From positions 1 through 37,159 of the forward strand of contig WRHL01000009.1 of NCBI GenBank assembly GCA_009783245.1: a stretch of 37,159 nucleotides of DNA, read 5' to 3'. The notes under the pieces were generated by a model. That model had not been told where the DNA came from. It searched no databases and was given only the letters and a program-made list of their open reading frames with translations. Of the stretch, positions 4,946 through 36,914 are shown piece after piece. The DNA comes from Coriobacteriia bacterium (GTDB lineage Bacteria; Actinomycetota; Coriobacteriia; Coriobacteriales; UBA8131). Numbering within the stretch: position 1 is the stretch's first letter; each line of letters opens with the position of its first letter. Position numbers and translations under genes: made by a program.

Positions 4946-7900
4946 CTAGGCTTCGAAGTTGTCCTTGGCGATGGAGATCATCAACTTGATGCGGTTGAGC
5001 TGGTTGACCTCGCTGGCGCCGGGGTCGTAGTCCACGGCTACTATGTTGGACTTGGGGTTGAGCTGACGCAGCGCCTTGATGACGCCTTTGCCGGTCACGT
5101 GGTTGGGCAGGCAGGCGAAGGGCTGCGTGCAGACTATGTTTGGCGTGCCGGTGTGGATGAGTTCGAGCATCTCGGCGGTCAGAAGCCAGCCCTCGCCCAT
5201 GGAGTTACAGAGGCTTAAGACCTCGCGCGCGTAGTCTGCCAGCTCATAGATGGTTGCCGGCGGATCGAAGCGCTCGCTTCTGCGCATGGCCTTGATGATG
5301 GGCTGGCGCATGCGATTGAGCAGGGCCAACGTGATGCGGGAACCCATGGCGGACTTGGCGGTCTTGACCAGCTCGCGCCGCTGCCAGATGGCGTTCGAGA
5401 TGCCAAAGAGGAAGAACTCCGTCAGTCCGGGCACCACCACTTCGCAGCCTTCCGCCTCCACCACGTCGACAATGCCGTTGTTGGCGGTGGGGTGGAATTT
5501 GACGAGGATCTCGCCCACGATGCCAACCCGTGGCTTGGAGCGGTCATCGACCAGCTCCAGGGTGTCGAACTCCCGGATGATCTGGCGTGCGGTGCGGCGG
5601 TAGATGCCGTAGCTGATCTTACCCAGTATCTGGCCGTCGCAGACATCCATCCACTTACGGAAGAGCGCGTACGCTGAGCCCTTGACCTTCTCGTAGGGCC
5701 GTGTTCGGTAGAGGCAGGCCATGAGCAGGTCACCGTAGTAGAAGGAATAGATGGCGCGCAGCAGCATGATGGGCTTGATCTTGAAGCCGGGGTTGTTCTC
5801 GCCACCTATGTTGTGGAAGCTCAGCGCGATGACCGGCACCTGCGGATACCCTGCCTCGCGCAGGGCCTTGCGGATGAGACCGATGTAGTTGGTTGCACGG
5901 CAACCACCGCCGGTCTGGGTGATGATGACCGCGGTGCGGTTGACGTCGTAGCGACCCGAGGTGATGGCCTCCATGATCTGGCCGGTGACCAGGATGGAGG
6001 GGTAGCAGATGTCGTTGTTGGTGTAGCGCAGGCCGGCTTCAACAGCCTCGGGATCCACGCTGGGCAGGATGTTGAGGTTGAAGCCGTACCGCTCAAAGAC
6101 CCTGCTGAGCAGCTCAAAATGGATGGGCGCCATCTGTGGGCTGAGGATGGTGTAGCCCTGCTCCTTCATCTCCTTGGTATAGGGCGGCTTGTTGATGGCC
6201 GTGGTGGTGAGGTTCGGCTTGGACATAAAGGGGACGGATGTGACAGAGGGGACGGATGTGACAGAGGGGACGGACGATGTGACAAAAGGGACCGCCCCCT
6301 TTGTCACATCGTCCGTCCCCTCTGTGTCCTCTATGTCCTGTTGCCGGGCTTCTTCCTGCTCCTTGAGGGCGGCCAGCAGCGAACGCACGCGGATGCGGGC
6401 AGCGCCCAGGTTGCTTACCTCGTCTATCTTGAGCACGGTGTAGATCTTGCCGGCCGGCTCCAGTATCTCCTGCACCTGGTCGGTGGTGATGGCATCAAGG
6501 CCGCAGCCAAAGCTGTTGAGCTGTATGAGGTCGAGGTCGTCGCGCAGCGTGCAGTACTTCGCCGCGGCGTAGAGGCGTGAGTGGAACATCCACTGGTCCA
6601 CCACGCGCAGCGGGCGCTCGGGCTTGATGATGTGCGCGATGCTGTCCTCGGTGAGCACCGCCAGGCCAAAGCTGGCGAGCAGTTCGGGGATGGCGTGGTT
6701 GATCTCCGGGTCTATGTGGTAGGGGCGCCCGGCCAGGACTATGCCGTGCGTCTTGGTCTCCTCCATCCAGCGTAGCGCGTCCTCACCGGCGCGGCGGATG
6801 TCGCTTTTGAAGGCCTCGTCCTCTGCCCAGGCCTTCTGTGTTGCCGCGGTCACCTCTGCCATGGTGGGGGCTGTGCCCTTTGCCTGGGGATGGGTATCGA
6901 AGTACTTCTTGAGCTCCTCATGGGAGCGCTCGATGAAGCGCTGCACGTTGTCATAGGGCAAGAAGGGGTTGAGGAAGGCGACCTCGCCGCTTTGCAGCTC
7001 CTCCACGTTGAGCTTGATGACCTCGGGGTAGCTGACCACAACCGGGCAGTTGAAGTGGTTGGGTGAGCCTTCGTCCTCTTGGCGCTCATAGCGGATGCAG
7101 GGCATGAAGATGAAGTCGATGGGGGATTCAGCGGACATAAAGGGGACGGATGTGACAAAGGGGACGGATGTGACAAAAGGGACCGTCCCCTTTGTCACAT
7201 CCGTCCCCTTTGTCACATCCAAGTCGATGGAGATACTGCGTTGGGCGATGCAGCCCAGGTTGACTGCCACCGGCAGCGCGGCGATGTGGCAGGGCGCCGT
7301 GAGCACATGCACGGCCAAGGCGGTGGCGCTGCCGCCAAAGCCGCCTGCGCCTATACCCAGGGCGTTTATCTCGGTGAGCAGCTCCTGCTCCAAAGATGTG
7401 GTGTCAGAACAGTACCGTCCCCCTGACACCTTTTCTGACACCTTTTGCTGCCTGACCTCGCGCAGCAAGGCGCGCTTAGCCAGACTGCCCACCTTGTCAA
7501 AGGTGCCGCCTACGCCAATGCCCACAAGCAGGGGCGGGCAGGCGTTCGCGCCTTTCTCCGCCACCGCCTCCAGCACTACGCGCTTGACCCCTTCCACACC
7601 CTCGCCAGGCGCAAGCATGACCACGCGCGAGGCGTTGTCGGAGCCGCCGCCCTTGAGCATGACGTGCAGCGTGGCGCCCTTCTTTTGGGGGTTGAGGTAC
7701 AGCTCGCAGAAGGCCGGTGTGTTGTTATAGGAGTTGGTACGGTCAGAAAGCGCGTCGCGCGTCAGGCTCATGCGCAGGGCGCCATGCCTATACGCGCGCG
7801 TAACGGCCCTGTCTACCAGCGAGAACACGTTGGCCGGCACGGTTATGGGGCGGCCGTTTGCGTACTTCTCCCCCACCTCCAGCAACACCCAGACGTACCC

Positions 7901-30034: not shown

Positions 30035-31681
30035 ATGACACAAGTCAAAGCAGGGTCACTGGCTGGCGAACTCCTCAAGAACGCCGGCGTGTCCTACCTC
30101 TTCGGCATCCCCGGCGGCCATGTCTACCCGCTCATGGAAGGCTGCAAGGAGGCCGGCATCCCCTTCATCGGGGTGCGTAACGAGATGAACGCGGCCTTCG
30201 CGGCTGAAGGCTGGGCGCTGACCACCGGCAAGCTCGGCGCCTGCACGGGTACGGCCGGCCCCGGTGTGACCAATCTCATCACCGGTATGGGCAATGCCAA
30301 ATGCGGCGGCTACCCCGTCCTCTACCTGGGAGGACGCGCCAAGCTTGCCGAGTTCGACGTCAACCAGCTGCAGGATTTCGAGACGCTCCCGGTTGTCTCC
30401 AGCATCTGCAAGTACTCCAAGGCCGTCTACGACCCAGCGCGCCTTCCCGAGTATATGCAACGCTGCGCGACCATGGCGATCTCCGGTCGCCCGGGCCCCG
30501 TCTACTTTGAGATGGCGCGCAACTACATGGAGGGCGAAATCGAGACCGACGAGCTTCCCAAGCTCCTCCCCATCCTGGCCCAGGGCGAAGGCCGCACCAA
30601 GGCCGACCCGGCTGCCGTAGCCAAGGCTGTCGAGCTGATCGACAAGGCCGAGCGCCCCATAGTGATGGCCGGCGGCGGCGCCTGGTGGTCGCAGGCCCAG
30701 GATGCCCTCAAGGCGTTCGTCGAGAAGACCGGCGTCCCCTTCTACACACGCAACGCGGCGCGCGGCATGATCTCCGACTTCCATCCGCTGTACGGCGGGT
30801 TGGCCTATAACCATCCCGTGCTGCTCAACACCCTGCCCATGGTCGATCTTATCGTCATAGTAGGGACCCGCCCAGGATATACGCTGCATCCGCAGCACCT
30901 GGCGACCGGCGTGCCGATCATCCGCATCGATATTGACCCCGCCGAGATCACCAGCATGGTGGATGTCACCGTGCCGCTGGTGGGCGACGCGCGCGCCGTG
31001 CTGGAGCAGCTGACCGAGGGCTGCGCCGAGGCCAAGCGCGACACGTGGCTCGCAGCGGTCAACGAGGTCAAGAGCAATGTGATGATGAGCGCGATGCCGG
31101 GCTTGATGTGCGAGGACACGCCCATCCATCCCATGCGGCTGCTGTTCGAGCTGTATCAATACGCGGCGATCAACAACGACACCATCTTCTGCATTGACGG
31201 TGGCGACGCTGCTACCTGGGGCTCTGCCGTTCTGCCGGCAACCGGCCCAGGCCAGCACCTCAGCCTGGGGGCTACCTGCTTTGGCCCGCTAGGCGTGGGT
31301 ATGGGTTATGCCATGGCGTCCAAGCTGGCGCATCCCGAGAAGACCGTCATCATGTTCACCGGCGACGGCGCCTTTGGCTACAACGTCATGGAGTATGACA
31401 CCTGCATCCGTTATGGGATCAACATCATCACCGTCATCCTCAACGACAAGCAGTGGGGCATGATCCTGCGCTCCGAGGCGAAGAAGACCGAGGGGCTCGA
31501 CCCCATTGGCCTGCAGCTGCGTGAGACCCATTACGAGGAGATCGTCACGGCCCTGGGTGGCTATGGCGAGTTTGTGACGGATCCCAATGAGATCGGCCCG
31601 GCGCTCCAGCGTGCCATCGAGTCCGGCGTTCCCGCCTGCATCAACGTCATGACCGACCCCCAATACGGCCCCAACTTCTGA
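30035..31681 (+). CDS. Thiamine diphosphate-dependent decarboxylase/ligase, acetolactate-synthase-like
   Basis: 548 residues with the three ThDP-enzyme domains in order: PYR (1-170), central (about 190-330) and PP (about 370-530). The catalytic glutamate is Glu50 in [14 protein letters not shown]. The cofactor motif is GDGAFGYN near residue 443, with LNDKQWGM about 27 residues later. Unlike the next gene, it lacks the Xsc-specific motifs. Candidates include a sulfopyruvate-decarboxylase-like, oxalyl-CoA-decarboxylase-like or acetolactate synthase activity. A product of sulfoacetaldehyde would feed Xsc directly; this is an inference from position. It lies 75 bp after the MFS gene and 13 bp before xsc. 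Confidence 0.88.
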
Positions 31682-31694
31682 TTGGAGAAACAGT

Positions 31695-33431
31695 ATGAGT
31701 AAAGTGAAGATGACGCCCAGCGAGGCCATGTGCGAGACGCTGCTGGCGGAGGGCGTGACCCATGTGACAGGCATTGTGGGCAGCGCCTTCATGGACCTGC
31801 TGGACCTGTTCCCCACGGCGGGGATCAAGTTCATCCCGGTGCGGCACGAGCAGAGCGCGGGGCACATGGAGGACGCGTATTGCCGCATCACCGGTAAGTG
31901 CGGGGTCATCACCGGGCAGAACGGCCCCGGCATCACCAACATGGTGACCTCGGTGGCGGCGGCCAACATGGCGCACACGCCGCTGGTGGTGATCTGCCCC
32001 TCTGCCGGCTCCACCTCGGTGGGTTGGGACGGCTTCCAAGAGGCCGACACCGTGCAGATCTTCAAGGCTATCACCAAGGCCGCCATCCGGGTGCCGCACC
32101 CCTCGCGCGCGGCGGACTGCCTGCGCAACGCCTTCCGCATTGCCTACGCTGAGCGCGGTGCGGTGCTATTGGACATCCCGCGCGACTATTTCTACGGTGA
32201 GCTGGAAGAGCGCATACTGCAACCGCACCAGTACCGCGTGGACAAGCGCGGCTGCGGCGATCCGCAGGACCTCGCAAAGGCCATCGAGCTGCTCTCTGGC
32301 GCCAAGAACCCGGTCATCATCTCTGGCCGCGGCGTGGTGGACACGCAGGCCTGGGGGCCCGTTGCCAGTATTGCCGAGAAGCTCACGGCCCCCGTTGTCT
32401 GCACCTATCTGCACAACGACGCCTTCCCGGCGGACCACCCGCTGTGGATGGGACCCATTGGCTACATGGGCTCCAAGGCCGCCATGAAGACCCTGTCCGA
32501 GGCTGACGTCATGCTGGCCATCGGCACGCGGCTGAGTGTCTTTGGTACCCTGCCGCAGTACGACATCAACTACTTCCCCGAGGAAGCCAAGATCATCCAG
32601 ATCGACATCAACCCGCGCCACATAGGCCGCACCCACCCGGTAGAGCTGGGCATGATAGCCGACGCGCTGGAGGCCACCAAGGCCATCGACGCGGGGCTGG
32701 CTGCGCAGCCGGTCAACGAGGAGCGCATGGCTGTTGTGCGGGCACGACAGGCCGAGTGGGACCAGGAGATCTATGACCTGGCCATGGTGGATGGCGTGCC
32801 GATGAACCCGCGCCGCGCCCTGCTCGAGATCTGCAAGGTGCTGCCAGAAAACGCCATTGTCGCAACGGACATAGGCAACGTCTCCTCCACAGCTAACAGC
32901 TATCTGCGCTTCAAAGGCGAGGGGCGCCACGTTGCAGCCCTGACCTTTGGTAACACCGGCTTTGCCTATCCCGCGGCCCTGGGTGCGCAGCTCGCCAAGC
33001 CCGACGCGCCGGTGGTGGCCATCATAGGCGACGGCGCCTGGGGTATGAGCCTGCATGAGGTGAGCACGGCTGTGGAGCACAACCTGCCGGTGGTCGCTAT
33101 TGTGTTCAGGAACATGGCCTGGTGTGCCGAGAAGAAGAACCAGATCGACTTCTTCAACAACCGCTTCATCGGCTGCGAGATCCCCAATCCCAAGACCTTC
33201 GCCCCGGTGGCTGAGGCCATGGAGGCCGTGGGCGTGAGCGTCTCCGATCCGGAGCAGGTGGGGCCTGCCTTGGCTGCCGCCCTGGCATCCCGTAAGCCCA
33301 CCGTGCTGGAGATCTGCTGCGACGGCACCCAGCTGGCGCCGCCCTTCCGGAAGGACGCATTCAAGATGCCCACCCGCCTTCTGCCCAAGTACGCCCACCT
33401 GGACGTGCGCAACTGGGACATGCACGATTAA
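31695..33431 (+). CDS. xsc: Sulfoacetaldehyde acetyltransferase
   Basis: 578 residues. A ThDP enzyme of the acetolactate-synthase superfamily with traits I recognise from Xsc: [19 protein letters not shown] at the N-terminus, Glu52 in [36 protein letters not shown] then [39 protein letters not shown] near 445, [13 protein letters not shown], and the tail [13 protein letters not shown]. Xsc splits sulfoacetaldehyde with phosphate to acetyl phosphate and sulfite (EC 2.3.3.15). The sulfite released would be the substrate of the Dsr system in the same window. It has a GGAGAA ribosome site and is the last gene before a strong palindrome at 33488. No phosphate acetyltransferase or acetate kinase is seen here. 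Confidence 0.85.
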
Positions 33432-33487
33432 GCGCGACTGAGCGCGACAAAGCGCGACTAACTGACATAAAGGGGAGGGTCCCTCGA

Positions 33488-33519
33488 GAAGGGCGGTGGT
33501 CTGCAGACCACCGCCCTTC
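33488..33519 (+). terminator. Perfect 32-bp palindrome after xsc
   Basis: GAAGGGCGGTGGTCTG followed directly by its complement, with no loop bases apart from the centre. It is GC-rich and lies 57 bp after the xsc stop. There is no T run, so it is a candidate terminator or an RNA-end-stabilising stem. Confidence 0.55.
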
Positions 33520-33540
33520 CCACATGAAATGTGGTACAAT

Positions 33541-33632
33541 CCGGTGTAGCAGCGCCCGCCTACTTGTGAAGCTTGCGACGGGTGCGCTTGGGATTTTGGA
33601 AGCGGTCTGACTAGGGCCGCTTCTCTTTATCT
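33541..33632 (+). ncRNA. Possible small RNA antisense to the 3' end of the 39-residue peptide gene
   Basis: A -10-like TACAAT (33535-33540) precedes about 90 nt that can form two stems. The second, GAAGCGG (33599-33605) with CCGCTTC (33617-33623), is followed by TCTTTATCTTT, an intrinsic-terminator pattern on the plus strand. The transcript would pair with the last codons and 3' end of the small gene coded on the minus strand. There is no clear -35 box. This is a structural suggestion only. Confidence 0.35.
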
Positions 33633-33730
33633 TTGCGCATCTTGCGCCAGATCCTGCACACCGCCCCAGCTAGAGCTACCAGCGCCGTAACTATCGTCGC
33701 CACAGCTGCCGCTGCGTTGAGTGTGTCCAT
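33611..33730 (-). CDS. 39-residue membrane peptide, type I toxin-like
   Basis: A short gene with a near-ideal ribosome site AAAGGAGGTGATA about 6 nt before the ATG (33728-33730). The peptide has one hydrophobic helix (AAAAVATIVTALVALAGAV) and a strongly basic tail (RIWRKMRKDKEKRP). This is the build of holin-like type I toxins (TxpA, Fst, Ldr groups), although I see no sequence identity that proves membership. Upstream on the same strand is a small palindrome, CTTACACAAAGTGTAAG (33827-33843). It stands alone between the xsc operon and the FAD oxidoreductase operon. It could instead be a harmless small membrane protein. Confidence 0.6.
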   Translation of the reverse strand: MDTLNAAAAVATIVTALVALAGAVCRIWRKMRKDKEKRP

Positions 33731-33847
33731 GGGTATCACCTCCTTTCGCAAGGGGCGCACCCGTCTGGCGAACACTGCTACGCTTGGGAGGATAGCAGGA
33801 CGGTCTGAATTTCTTCTAAACGGTACCTTACACAAAGTGTAAGCTGG

Positions 33848-33955
33848 ATGACAAAGGGGACGGTCCCTTTTGTCATGTCCACTGGCGCCTACATGACAAA
33901 AGGGACCGTCCCCTTTGTCATGTCCCCTTTGTCACGTCCCTTTTGTCACATCTAA
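33848..33955. repeat. Family-A palindrome with extra half units
   Basis: Perfect 31-bp arms (33848-33878 and 33891-33921) with GGGACGGTCCCTTTTGTCA cores, followed by two more TGTCCC-type half units to 33955. It is intergenic; the remainder of 33956-34153 is AT-richer leader of the next gene with AAAGGAG before the ATG and no recognised gene. Confidence 0.9.
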
Positions 33956-34153
33956 GGGCTGCTGCGAAGCGGCAAATGTGATTTCAACCAAAGTTTTTCA
34001 GGTTTGGCCACCAGTCACGACAATCCAAGCCCTGTTTTTATCGTATGATGGAGGCACCAGTTCCAAGTTAATAAAAATAACGGCAAACGCAAGTAATCAC
34101 CAAGCAATCAGCAACTCACCAAACAAACGGATAGTGACAGAAAGGAGAATCAC

Positions 34154-35671
34154 ATGGTCAAAAGTGTAGATGTCCTTGTGGTTGGCGCGGGGAATGCCGG
34201 GTTGTCGGCTGCCGCGACGGCCGCGAAGATGGGGTTGAGCACCCTGCTTGTGGAGCGGCACAACCTGCCCGGTGGCAGCGCTTCCAGCTTCAGGCGGGGG
34301 CGCTTCGAGTTTGAGCCGTCTTTGCATGAGATGGCGAACTTCGGCCCACCGGAGAACCCGGGCGATTCACGGGAGCTCTTCGAATGGCTTGGCCTCAATG
34401 TGAAGATGCTGCCGGTGGAGCACGCCTTCCGCACCATTGTGACCGGCCCGGACGGCTACGACGTCACCATGCCCATTGGCGTTGAGAACTTCATTGGCAA
34501 GCTGGCCCAGGAGGTGCCCGGCAGCGCCCCCAGCGTGGCGGCTTTCTTCCAACTAGCCGCTGACGTGGGACGCGCTTTTGGCTACCTGGCGCAGGGGCCG
34601 CCAGACCCCATGGTGCTCATGGAACAGCATTCCAACTTCATGAAGGTCTCGAACCAGCCGGTGGGCGTGGTCCTCGATGAGCTGAAGATGCCGCAAAAGG
34701 CACAGAACATCCTTTTGACCTATTGGCCCTACATGGGCACGCCGCGCAGCCAGTTCGCCTTCATCATGTATGCGCTGATCACCGCCCTCTATGTGAGCAA
34801 GGGCGCCTATATCCCCACGGACCGCTCCCATGAGCTGAGCCTTGCGATGGACCAATCGATCCGCGACAACGGCGGCGAGGTCTGGTACAACACCGAGATA
34901 AGCCGGCTCCTGGTGAAGGACGGGGTCTGCCACGGCGCCGTGACAAAGGACGGGACCGAGATCCAGGCAAAGGCCGTCATCGCGAACTTCTTCCCCAGCA
35001 GGGCCTTTGGCGGCATGGTTGACGGAGCCGAGGTACCGGCGTCAGAGGTCAAGCGCGCCAACGCGCGGCGTATTGGCATGTCGGCCTTCTGCGTGTGGAT
35101 GGGCGTCAGCAAGTCCCCCGAGGAGCTGGGCATCAAGGACTACAGCGTGTTCCTTGCGGACTCGCCGGATTCCGAGGTGCTGTTCGAGGGCATGCACACG
35201 CTGGATGACAACAACTTCTCCATCATGAACTGCCTGAACATCGACAACCCCGGCGCCAGCCCGGAGGGCACCTCGCTTCTGTGGTCCACGCAGCTTTTCG
35301 CCCCCGGTGTCTGGGACAACGTGCGGCCGCAGGACTACAAGGCGCTCAAGAACCGCCTGGCACAAAAGGTCATCAAGCAGTACGAGGACGCCACGGGCGT
35401 CATCATCTCGGACTGCATCGAGGAGATCTCCGTAGGCACGCCGCTGACCTTCGCCCGCTACCTCAACCACCCCCAGGGCTCGATCTACGGCTACCACACC
35501 GCCAACTGGGACTCCATGCTGCCGCGCATCATGGCCAAGGACATGGAACAGCCCGTTAAGGGCCTGTACTTCGCCGGCGGTCACGGCATGCGCACGCTGG
35601 GCTACAGCTCCACCTATGTCAACGGAAAGCAGTCCGCCCAAATGGCCGCCGCGTACCTGAAGGAGGGCTGA
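34154..35671 (+). CDS. FAD-dependent oxidoreductase of the phytoene-desaturase-like family
   Basis: 505 residues. There is an N-terminal dinucleotide fold VLVVGAGNAGLSAAATAAKMG (7-27) with Glu at the end of beta-2 (VERHNLPGGSASSF). The C-terminal FAD motif is GLYFAGGHGMRTLGYSSTYVNG. This is the layout of CrtI/COG1233-type dehydrogenases. There are no carotenoid genes around it, so carotenoid synthesis is unlikely. It is followed after 4 bp by an NAD:2Fe-2S reductase, so the two probably form a redox pair that moves electrons between NAD(P)H and an organic substrate. The substrate is unknown; a sulfonate-related or electron-acceptor role is possible. Confidence 0.85.
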   Translation: MVKSVDVLVVGAGNAGLSAAATAAKMGLSTLLVERHNLPGGSASSFRRGRFEFEPSLHEMANFGPPENPGDSRELFEWLGLNVKMLPVEHAFRTIVTGPDGYDVTMPIGVENFIGKLAQEVPGSAPSVAAFFQLAADVGRAFGYLAQGPPDPMVLMEQHSNFMKVSNQPVGVVLDELKMPQKAQNILLTYWPYMGTPRSQFAFIMYALITALYVSKGAYIPTDRSHELSLAMDQSIRDNGGEVWYNTEISRLLVKDGVCHGAVTKDGTEIQAKAVIANFFPSRAFGGMVDGAEVPASEVKRANARRIGMSAFCVWMGVSKSPEELGIKDYSVFLADSPDSEVLFEGMHTLDDNNFSIMNCLNIDNPGASPEGTSLLWSTQLFAPGVWDNVRPQDYKALKNRLAQKVIKQYEDATGVIISDCIEEISVGTPLTFARYLNHPQGSIYGYHTANWDSMLPRIMAKDMEQPVKGLYFAGGHGMRTLGYSSTYVNGKQSAQMAAAYLKEG

Positions 35672-35675
35672 TGAG

Positions 35676-36914
35676 ATGGCTAACGAAGTCGAACTGAACC
35701 TGGACCCCATGAACCTGATGTACATCATCCCCGAGCGCGTGGACAAGATCGAGGCGGCGCCGGACACCCCACTGCCCGCAGAGTACCCCACCAACGCGCT
35801 GATGCTCTCGCTGCATCCCGAGTGGCAGTACGCGAAGATAGTGGCCATAAAGGAGCACGGAACGGACGCCAAGAGCTATGTTTTGACTCCCGATAAGGAC
35901 AAAGGCACAACCAGCTTCGCCTATTTCAACGCCGGACAATATGTCTGCGTGCTGCTCGCCATTGGCGGCTCGCGCCTGCTGCGGCCCTACTCCATCCGCT
36001 CCGCCCCGGTCGAAGCGCTGGGCGGCGGCGCTGCGGGCGTTGCGGGCTTAGGTAGCACTTACGTGCTCACCATCAAGCGCGCGGCCGACGGCTTCGCCTC
36101 GGACTACATCCTCGACACCTGGGCCGTGGGCGACGCGGTCACCCTCACCGGCCCCGAGGGCAACTTCTGCTATGAGCCGCTGCGCGACAACGCCCACATA
36201 CTTGGCATCGCCGGCGGCAGCGGCATCACGCCCTTCCACTCCCTGGCCAGCGCCATCGCAGACGGCACGGAGGACTGCTCGCTGACCCTGCTCTACGGCA
36301 GCCGCCTGGCAGACGACATCCTCCTGCGCGCTGAGCTGGACGTACTGGCGGCAAAAACCGACAAGTTCAAGGTCATCCATGTGCTCAGCGACGAGCAGGT
36401 CGAGGGCTATGAGCACGGCTTCATCACCACGGAACTCATCTCAAAGTACGCCCCGCCAGAGGGCTACAGCCTCTTCTTATGCGGGCCACAGGTCATGTAC
36501 ACCTTCTGTGACGAGCAGATCGAGCCCCTGGGGCTTGCACCCCGCCTCATCCGCCACGAGCTCTTTGGCGAGTGCAAGGCCCCTGCCGCCCAGCCGGACT
36601 TCCCCGGCTTGTCAGACGCAGCCGCCGCAGCCTACACCTGCACGGTGATCTGTCGCGACCAGAAGCAGGAGATCCCCTGCGCTGTGGGTGAGAGCCTGCT
36701 TGTGGCGCTGGAGCGTGCGGGCATCGCTGCCCCCTCCCGCTGCCGCAGCGGTGAGTGCGGCTTCTGCCACACCAAGCTGCTGGACGGCGAGGTCTTCACC
36801 CCCGCCGCCTTTGACAAGCGCCGCCTGGCCGACGTCACCTTCAACTGCATCCACCCCTGCGTGACCTTCCCGCTGGGCGACGTCACCATCGACCTTCCCA
36901 TCAAGGAGGTCTGA
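35676..36914 (+). CDS. Ferredoxin-NAD reductase-like protein with C-terminal 2Fe-2S domain
   Basis: 412 residues. A 50-residue N-terminal extension precedes the flavin domain with RPYSIRSAP (103-111), an NAD domain with GIAGGSGITPF (177-187) and LCGP (268-271), and a plant-type 2Fe-2S domain with CRSGECGFC and distal Cys395 (Cys356, 361, 364, 395). This is the reductase layout seen in electron-transfer chains of oxygenases and anaerobic flavoenzymes. AAGGAGG lies inside the upstream gene and the two are translationally linked. It likely passes electrons to or from the FAD oxidoreductase coded before it. Confidence 0.88.
   Translation: MANEVELNLDPMNLMYIIPERVDKIEAAPDTPLPAEYPTNALMLSLHPEWQYAKIVAIKEHGTDAKSYVLTPDKDKGTTSFAYFNAGQYVCVLLAIGGSRLLRPYSIRSAPVEALGGGAAGVAGLGSTYVLTIKRAADGFASDYILDTWAVGDAVTLTGPEGNFCYEPLRDNAHILGIAGGSGITPFHSLASAIADGTEDCSLTLLYGSRLADDILLRAELDVLAAKTDKFKVIHVLSDEQVEGYEHGFITTELISKYAPPEGYSLFLCGPQVMYTFCDEQIEPLGLAPRLIRHELFGECKAPAAQPDFPGLSDAAAAAYTCTVICRDQKQEIPCAVGESLLVALERAGIAAPSRCRSGECGFCHTKLLDGEVFTPAAFDKRRLADVTFNCIHPCVTFPLGDVTIDLPIKEV

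Follow-up and report, generated by a model that had tools for sequence, protein, structure and literature searches.

The locus and its features

The question raised by this locus concerns the 722-bp gap separating xsc, which codes for a sulfoacetaldehyde acetyltransferase (31695-33431, plus strand; TIGR03457, 815 bits, above the cut-off), from a FAD-dependent desaturase-like gene (34154-35671, plus strand): does this gap embed a type I toxin-antitoxin locus, as proposed in a preliminary description of the DNA, and, if so, of which kind? The window, i.e., the whole stretch of 37,159 nucleotides analysed here, belongs to an uncultured Coriobacteriales genome. A second ThDP-type enzyme, with scores below the cut-offs shown, is encoded immediately 5' of xsc (the pair spanning 30035-33431), and the desaturase-like FAD protein is followed by a ferredoxin-reductase-like protein (34154-36914), both below the curated cut-offs shown.

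The sequence data indicate that the gap likely harbors a chromosomal type I toxin-antitoxin module belonging to a Coriobacteriales-wide family, and consisting of the mRNA for a probably toxic single-helix membrane peptide and of an antisense RNA of about 87 nt. According to the best reading of its features, listed below, the layout would be new among the type I toxin-antitoxin systems.

33488-33519, minus strand: 16-bp perfect palindromic hairpin, between xsc and the antisense promoter
33535-33540, plus strand: -10-like box TACAAT of the antisense RNA, assigned from the sequence and from relatives
33549-33560, minus strand: 3' arm a', GGCGGGCGCTGC, from motif and covariation; on the plus strand, the 5' end of the antisense RNA
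33549-33635, plus strand: antisense (putative antitoxin) RNA, about 87 nt; 44.2 bits with RNA model R1, whose training set contains this RNA, and best match in the window (E=0.022) with R2, trained without the window's family
33577-33587, minus strand: 3' arm b', GCGCACCCGTC, from motif and covariation
33599-33623, plus strand: hairpin across the peptide stop codon, GAAGCGG../..CCGCTTC, terminator-like for the antisense RNA only
33611-33730, minus strand: putative toxin ORF, 39 aa (stop codon included), with homologs and a pooled pN/pS of 0.47 in relatives
33735-33746, minus strand: Shine-Dalgarno sequence AAAGGAGGTGAT, predicted to pair with a CCUU just upstream (probability 0.87)
33755-33765, minus strand: leader arm b, GACGGGTGCGC, from motif and covariation
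33767-33778, minus strand: leader arm a, GCAGTGTTCGCC, from motif and covariation; putative 5' end of the toxin mRNA
33789-33794, minus strand: -10-like box TATCCT of the toxin, its role being suggested by relatives

The same order (-10 box, arm a, arm b, Shine-Dalgarno sequence, ORF, stop hairpin, b', a', opposite-strand -10 box) recurs in most of the 100 members collected. The pairing of the leader arms with arms downstream of the stop codon, and the 11-bp inverted repeat formed by 33577-33587 with 33755-33765, were absent from the preliminary description.

Other repeats lie close to the module. A REP-like palindrome containing GGACGGTCCCTTTTGTCA occupies 33848-33921 and is also found near 7171, 10987, 11022, and 15226; in the genome as a whole, this motif gives 92 + 87 matches at no more than one mismatch, and the reversed pattern gives 0. 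The Rfam miRNA matches near 33480-33529 and in the palindrome at 33848-33921 were all below the gathering scores and were judged artefacts.

The peptide and its translation signal

The 39-residue peptide, MDTLNAAAAVATIVTALVALAGAVCRIWRKMRKDKEKRP, is hydrophobic and basic, as originally stated: its net charge is +5, its best 19-residue hydropathy is 2.3, and a single helix (residues 3-37, mean pLDDT 84) is predicted from the single sequence. The upstream signal is also the near-perfect Shine-Dalgarno sequence previously reported; AAAGGAGGTGAT is unique in the window, with one copy over the two strands together and 0.0023 expected from base composition. The locus thus shows a general feature of type I systems, namely a ribosome-binding site dedicated to a short hydrophobic peptide whose tail is basic. 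Beyond the TAG stop, the frame remains open for 16 codons, many of which are basic (33560-33610, minus strand, read by eye).

Among 70 distinct peptides, 67 contain a 19-residue stretch with a KD value of at least 1.6, and 54 carry a net charge of at least +2 within the last 16 residues. The pooled pN/pS (0.47) was obtained over 14 groups, single groups ranging from 0.18 to 1.38 and three of them lacking any synonymous change; the peptide is, on these values, under a constraint that is moderate rather than strong.

The antisense RNA, its terminator, and the promoters

A convergent RNA of about 90 nt, with a terminator overlapping the peptide stop codon, had been suggested for the opposite strand, and this agrees well with the antisense RNA of about 87 nt delimited here, whose start would fall near 33547-33549 and whose hairpin spans the stop codon. 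The hairpin is followed by the U-rich tract TCTTTATCTTT, extending to about 33635 on the plus strand. A perfect stem of at least 6 bp near the stop codon was found in 63/75 members and was absent in 12/75; once nine duplicates had been dropped, 54 distinct hairpins were left, 44 of which span the stop codon. Per 10 nt after these 54 hairpins, 5.9 T are counted in the antisense direction vs. 2.1 in the toxin direction; the antisense U-run is the richer one in 52/54 cases and the poorer one in none, and at least five T in 10 nt occur in 47/54 cases on the antisense side vs. 1/54 on the toxin side. The stop-codon hairpin is, from its sequence context, suited as a terminator to the antisense RNA only. 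This one-sided U-run implies that the toxin mRNA probably continues past the hairpin and through b' and a'; the palindrome at 33488-33519 is a candidate site for the termination of the toxin mRNA, of the xsc transcript, or of both.

As for the promoters, 71 members have a -10 box on each side, the distance to the arm being 8-13 nt in most cases. Their mean score (out of 7) is 6.24 on the antisense side, 5.75 on the toxin side, and 3.89 in shuffled sequences (n=71), the antisense box being better than the toxin one in 37 members, equal in 25, and worse in nine; matches to the -35 element are weak for both promoters (3.0 and 3.4 out of 6, with no control made). Since a generic promoter scan of positions 33200-34200, on both strands, yielded nothing passing the two-hexamer rule, the promoter assignments rest on the -10 boxes and on their conservation. 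Two features of known systems can thus be recognized: the convergent promoters of Fst/Ldr, given by the -10 boxes on both sides of the 71 members, with start sites placed from the sequence, and, as in type I systems in general, a small RNA that overlaps the toxin mRNA, is complementary to it, and possesses, at the sequence level, its own promoter and terminator.

The antisense RNA also carries a conserved 5' hairpin (GCCCG..CGGGC), any of whose five pairs is broken in no more than 1/34 sequences. A YUNR U-turn in the loop of the antisense hairpin was considered and found to be unsupported (46/66 distinct loops vs. a mean of 39 and a maximum of 49 in shuffled ones).

Pairing between the two ends of the putative toxin mRNA

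The arms a and b were located by leader-only motifs, and b' and a' by tail-only motifs, in order to limit circularity; the motif seeds were picked after inspection of the members. With two of the 100 members left out because of their short flanks, all four arms were found by the automatic motif test in 75/98 members, at least one arm being missed in the other 23. In some of the latter, the arms are visible by eye (G027, G001a, G004b, and G029a); the leader is missing in others (G014c, G234_C7, G362_C84b, and G377_C23), and no arm at all is present in G001b.

In 64 distinct members, the two pairs of arms give 1344 pairing cells: 1110 Watson-Crick, 165 G.U, 16 A.C, and 53 other. The paired fraction is 94.9%, vs. 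a mean of 89.3% with permuted 3' arms, and none of 2000 permutations reached 94.9%, the pairing register (10 or 11) having been taken for each locus by better fit, which introduces a small bias. Changes on both sides occur in 11/21 columns of these 64 members. About a third of the G.U cells come from a single column, a6 (U.G in 57/64); without it, 108 G.U face 16 A.C. The members are related, so that counts across them are not independent. Such an excess of G.U over A.C on the toxin strand would not be predicted by a DNA inverted repeat alone, and it argues that selection is acting on the pairing of the toxin mRNA, i.e., on the RNA strand.

The predicted energies point in the same direction. 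The duplex between leader and tail of the same member averages -64.9 kcal/mol, vs. -51.7 with swapped tails and -45.2 with shuffled tails (94/100 members); the own tail ranks among the top 5% of all tails in 47/94 members only, a modest ranking due to the fact that many members share one consensus. In 75 members, the long-distance interaction is predicted to be more stable (-50.6; -52.6 in the window) than the two local hairpins (-9.5 and -14.8). Concerning the Shine-Dalgarno sequence, its mean predicted pairing probability is 0.81 vs. 0.57 when the segment from arm b to the Shine-Dalgarno sequence is shuffled, and it is above the shuffled value in 61/64 members (Wilcoxon 6.5e-12); these are 64 of 75 members, the rest being duplicates or lacking the Shine-Dalgarno sequence or a long enough spacer. 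A local hairpin is therefore predicted to mask the Shine-Dalgarno sequence. Of the features of the Hok/AapA class, the covarying 5'-3' long-distance interaction is present, and the hairpin sequestering the Shine-Dalgarno sequence is present by prediction.

Distribution and dispersal of the module

The preliminary description proposed a search for homologous peptides with the same convergent terminator, and held that a lack of conservation would speak against the locus. Both peptide and layout recur in relatives. With the single peptide as a query, 26/60 relatives gave a match at E<=1, the clear ones starting from E=4e-5. A 20-member peptide profile matched 17/33 genomes of the window's family and 36 of 297 sampled genomes of the order, and a 22-member diverse profile matched 81/395 Coriobacteriales genomes at E<=0.01 and 51 at E<=1e-5; the rows of this profile derive from some of the 395 genomes searched, and chance probably accounts for the weak matches located within long frames. 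In a class-level sample of 296 genomes, one further genome outside the order (G414) matched at E<=1e-4; its locus (L199, G414:C33:455-565), of the same class, has E=6.6e-7. As for the RNA, R1 gave matches at E<=0.001 in 100/297 genomes of the order and in 3/149 genomes of the phylum, all three from Coriobacteriales. The peptide and its facing RNA are, as far as these homology searches indicate, conserved in many Coriobacteriales genomes.

No match on phages or plasmids was obtained with one Gordonibacter-type peptide as the only query, and R1 reached nothing better than E=0.28 on the viral-contig pattern hit (L067) and on 20/26 genome-contig pattern hits from other lineages. At five loci (L036, L097, L102, L186, and L192), the module or its RNA is present in tandem. 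In a pair of closely similar loci from two genomes (L104 and L105), one ORF is open and the other carries a frameshift (by eye).

In nine within-genome paralog pairs, one of which is cut by a contig end, the similarity is confined to the module of about 250 bp and to flanks of 1-51 bp (upstream) and 8-64 bp (downstream), as opposed to at least hundreds of shared bases per flank in five pairs from related genomes. The confinement of paralog similarity to the module and its short flanks would be expected of a MITE-like mobile element, with the arms as terminal inverted repeats and the ORF and the RNA as incidental passengers. We regard this explanation as very improbable, since the similarity does not stop at the arms but continues in the direction of the promoters, no target-site duplication is visible by eye (three pairs with both flanks; in a fourth, one copy lies at a contig end), the large excess of G.U over A.C reveals selection on the RNA strand, and the peptide and Shine-Dalgarno features are conserved, with a pooled pN/pS below 1. 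Mobility and a toxin-antitoxin role are, in any case, compatible with each other.

The genome under study contains a second copy of the RNA (G000:C67:9515-9600, L200; E=4e-4), opposite to which only a C-terminal remnant of the toxin can be read by eye (...KKRKERP-stop). This copy is apparently an antitoxin that outlived its toxin.

Relationship with the Collinsella-1 RNA

One relative (L112) has, on its antisense strand, a full-length match with the Collinsella-1 RNA (RF01700) of 24.3 bits, below the gathering score. A search with RF01700 recovered 60/395 genomes of the order at E<=0.01, 34 of them above the cut-off, and 0/14 control genomes. Eight RF01700 matches abut a peptide match on the opposite strand (G158, G260 twice, G169 twice, G091, G167, and G214). 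The window's own RNA has no scoring match with RF01700; the link to this motif therefore runs via its relatives.

This link was examined with the two RNA models, whose E-values are rough. R1 was built on 34 antisense RNAs, including that of the window, none of which comes from an RF01700-listed locus, although one of its rows (G366_C21) differs very little from L112, i.e., to the sub-gathering RF01700 match. On 30 RF01700 loci, R1 found the RF01700 match itself in 27 at E<0.01; in the other three (L187-L189), its only match, also at E<0.01, was to a neighbouring RF01700 match oriented towards the first one. On 21 decoy loci, no match was better than E=0.28. R2, without rows from the window's family, matched 19/30 RF01700 loci at E<=0.01 and, in the window's family, 6/20 loci at E<=0.1; in the window, its best match is the antisense RNA (E=0.022). 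The bridge drawn by R2 between the window's family and RF01700 is, at the level of these matches, real but weak. In L188, the facing RF01700 matches are G081:C1:1076288-1076414 (plus strand) and 1076672-1076822 (minus strand), the second having no toxin ORF beside it according to the automatic test; G368 and G117 show the same facing pair.

A leader with arms a and b, a Shine-Dalgarno sequence, and an ORF of 25-70 codons were found opposite the RF01700 RNAs in 12/30 loci, vs. 0/30 in the mirrored control. Similarly, a toxin-like ORF lies opposite 8/20 R1-found loci missed by the peptide profile (control 0/20; 12/20 by eye). The antisense RNA appears to correspond to the 3' half of RF01700, whose first ~95 positions would lie upstream of the putative RNA start, in the promoter region.

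The automatic test found no toxin ORF opposite 18/30 RF01700 loci, and one solo RNA is identical over 110 nt in five g35 genomes (L169-L173). Both observations might suggest that the plus-strand RNA works chiefly on its own, as a trans-acting sRNA, and that the peptide ORF is secondary to it. This possibility appears improbable, given that toxin-coupled copies with a matching leader exist in several families, that the mirrored control gave no case, and that terminator and stop codon are interlocked in 44/54 hairpins; from their sequences, the other RNA copies look solo or decayed.

In the main text of the paper reporting Collinsella-1, the only mention of the name is in a row of a table ("y n n, Actinobacteria, human gut"), and the words toxin and antitoxin are absent (Weinberg et al. 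2010, PMC2864571). In the literature searched, from which most subscription journals were excluded, the name or accession was found only in this paper, no function was found for it, and no description of type I systems in Coriobacteriales was found. We place at even chances the broader proposal that RF01700 is the antitoxin of an order-wide, undescribed type I family, in which both RNAs start in a near-identical way from inverted-repeat promoters, the 3' end of the toxin mRNA copies the start of the antitoxin gene and thereby locks its own leader, and the solo copies act as antidotes in trans.

Comparison with known type I systems

In the TxpA/RatA and BsrG/SR4 systems of Bacillus, the antisense RNA overlaps the 3' end of the mRNA for a small hydrophobic toxin. 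The module shares this arrangement and differs from both systems in its conserved two-helix 5'-3' interaction derived from inverted repeats; no TxpA/RatA toxin model was among the matches of the family searches. Of the two layouts originally invoked, TxpA/RatA and Fst, the 3'-overlapping antisense RNA holds, and the resemblance to Fst fails on the inverted repeats and on the one-sided U-run (52/54).

According to the relevant passages of PMC7472228, the Fst RNAs cross at direct repeats, share a bidirectional terminator, and are characterized by convergent promoters and by a lock on the Shine-Dalgarno sequence. With Fst/par (pAD1), as presented there, the module has in common the convergent promoters, a short membrane peptide with a charged C-terminus, an antisense terminator hairpin, and an intramolecular lock on the Shine-Dalgarno sequence. 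Unlike in that account of Fst, the repeats of the module are inverted, so that the two RNAs share their 5' sequence rather than being complementary there, and the U-run is one-sided, so that the terminator is not bidirectional; Fst-type direct repeats DRa/DRb and an Fst-type bidirectional terminator (at least five T on the toxin side in 1/54 vs. 47/54 on the antisense side) were hence ruled out. The PXXXG(C) motif, given for Fst/Ldr, is absent from the window peptide, and neither an Fst nor an Ldr model was among the matches.

The passages of PMC6733600 on AapA3 and Hok describe a 5'-3' interaction with transient hairpins. The module resembles AapA/IsoA and Hok/Sok, in the features given there, in having a 5'-3' long-distance mRNA interaction and local, possibly metastable hairpins; unlike in these systems, there is no match in peptide sequence and the 3' arm doubles as the start of the antisense gene. 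Finally, the comparison with Collinsella-1 places the 3' half of RF01700 on the module's antisense RNA, many RF01700 copies being solo.

The proposal of a type I toxin-antitoxin locus is thus borne out as concerns the order-wide conservation of the peptide and of its facing RNA, and finds no counterpart among the known families: no toxin family was above a shown cut-off in Pfam, NCBIfam, and PADLOC (none in PADLOC). The nearest is the C. difficile type I toxin family NF047374, to which one relative shows a sub-threshold likeness (E=0.072); membership was rejected (13.5 bits vs. a cut-off of 60). Three further matches were judged to be chance similarities of a short hydrophobic helix: FeoB_associated (window peptide, E=0.0048, 17.6 bits vs. 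27), Phage_holin_10 (window peptide, E=0.015, 15.8 bits vs. 27), and CcmD (one relative at 7e-4, in a table giving no cut-off), the first two being the best that the window peptide obtained.

Proposed mechanism and significance

The layout, its conservation, the covariation, the strand-specific pairing, the one-sided U-run, and the better antisense -10 boxes support the toxin-antitoxin reading at the sequence level, and we infer the transcription, the toxicity, the order of events, and the involvement of an RNase. The minus strand would give the mRNA for the small single-helix membrane peptide, probably toxic when overproduced, and the plus strand the antisense RNA of about 87 nt, complementary to the last codons, the stop codon, and the 3' region of the mRNA. 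Translation might be held back by a first lock, the local hairpin over the Shine-Dalgarno sequence, by a second one, the long-distance a:a' and b:b' pairing of the full-length mRNA, and by a third one, the perfect pairing of the antisense RNA with the mRNA 3' region, presumably leading to cleavage. During mRNA synthesis, translation would be delayed by the Shine-Dalgarno hairpin and by an a:b hairpin; completion of the 3' arms would then allow a:a' and b:b' to close the mRNA. The antisense RNA would be in excess, provided that a better -10 box means a stronger promoter, and its pairing would lead to mRNA decay. Since the leader would be released when the antisense RNA occupies b' and a', repression would have to come from cleavage or from a further contact. 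On loss of the antisense RNA, a truncated or refolded mRNA might be translated and the peptide might insert into the membrane.

The moderate constraint on the peptide, whose toxicity is putative, would also suit a small non-toxic membrane peptide, regulatory or stress-related, whose level is tuned by the antisense RNA and by mRNA folding, with no toxin-antitoxin role. We consider this unlikely, in that it does not fit well with several separate translation locks, and that both the multi-copy dispersal and the RNA copies devoid of an intact toxin ORF (18/30 RF01700 loci and the remnant in the own genome) fit an addiction-type module better. The chromosomal position amid metabolic genes is not decisive, because par EF0409, a characterised locus, has a similar setting, between two phosphotransferase systems, as reported in the relevant passage of PMC7472228.

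If the toxin-antitoxin reading is true, a new toxin-antitoxin family, with a peptide so short that gene callers may miss it, would exist in an order containing common gut bacteria; a catalogued RNA motif, with no assigned function in the sources searched, would acquire one, and one inverted repeat would supply both the lock of the mRNA and the start of its antitoxin.
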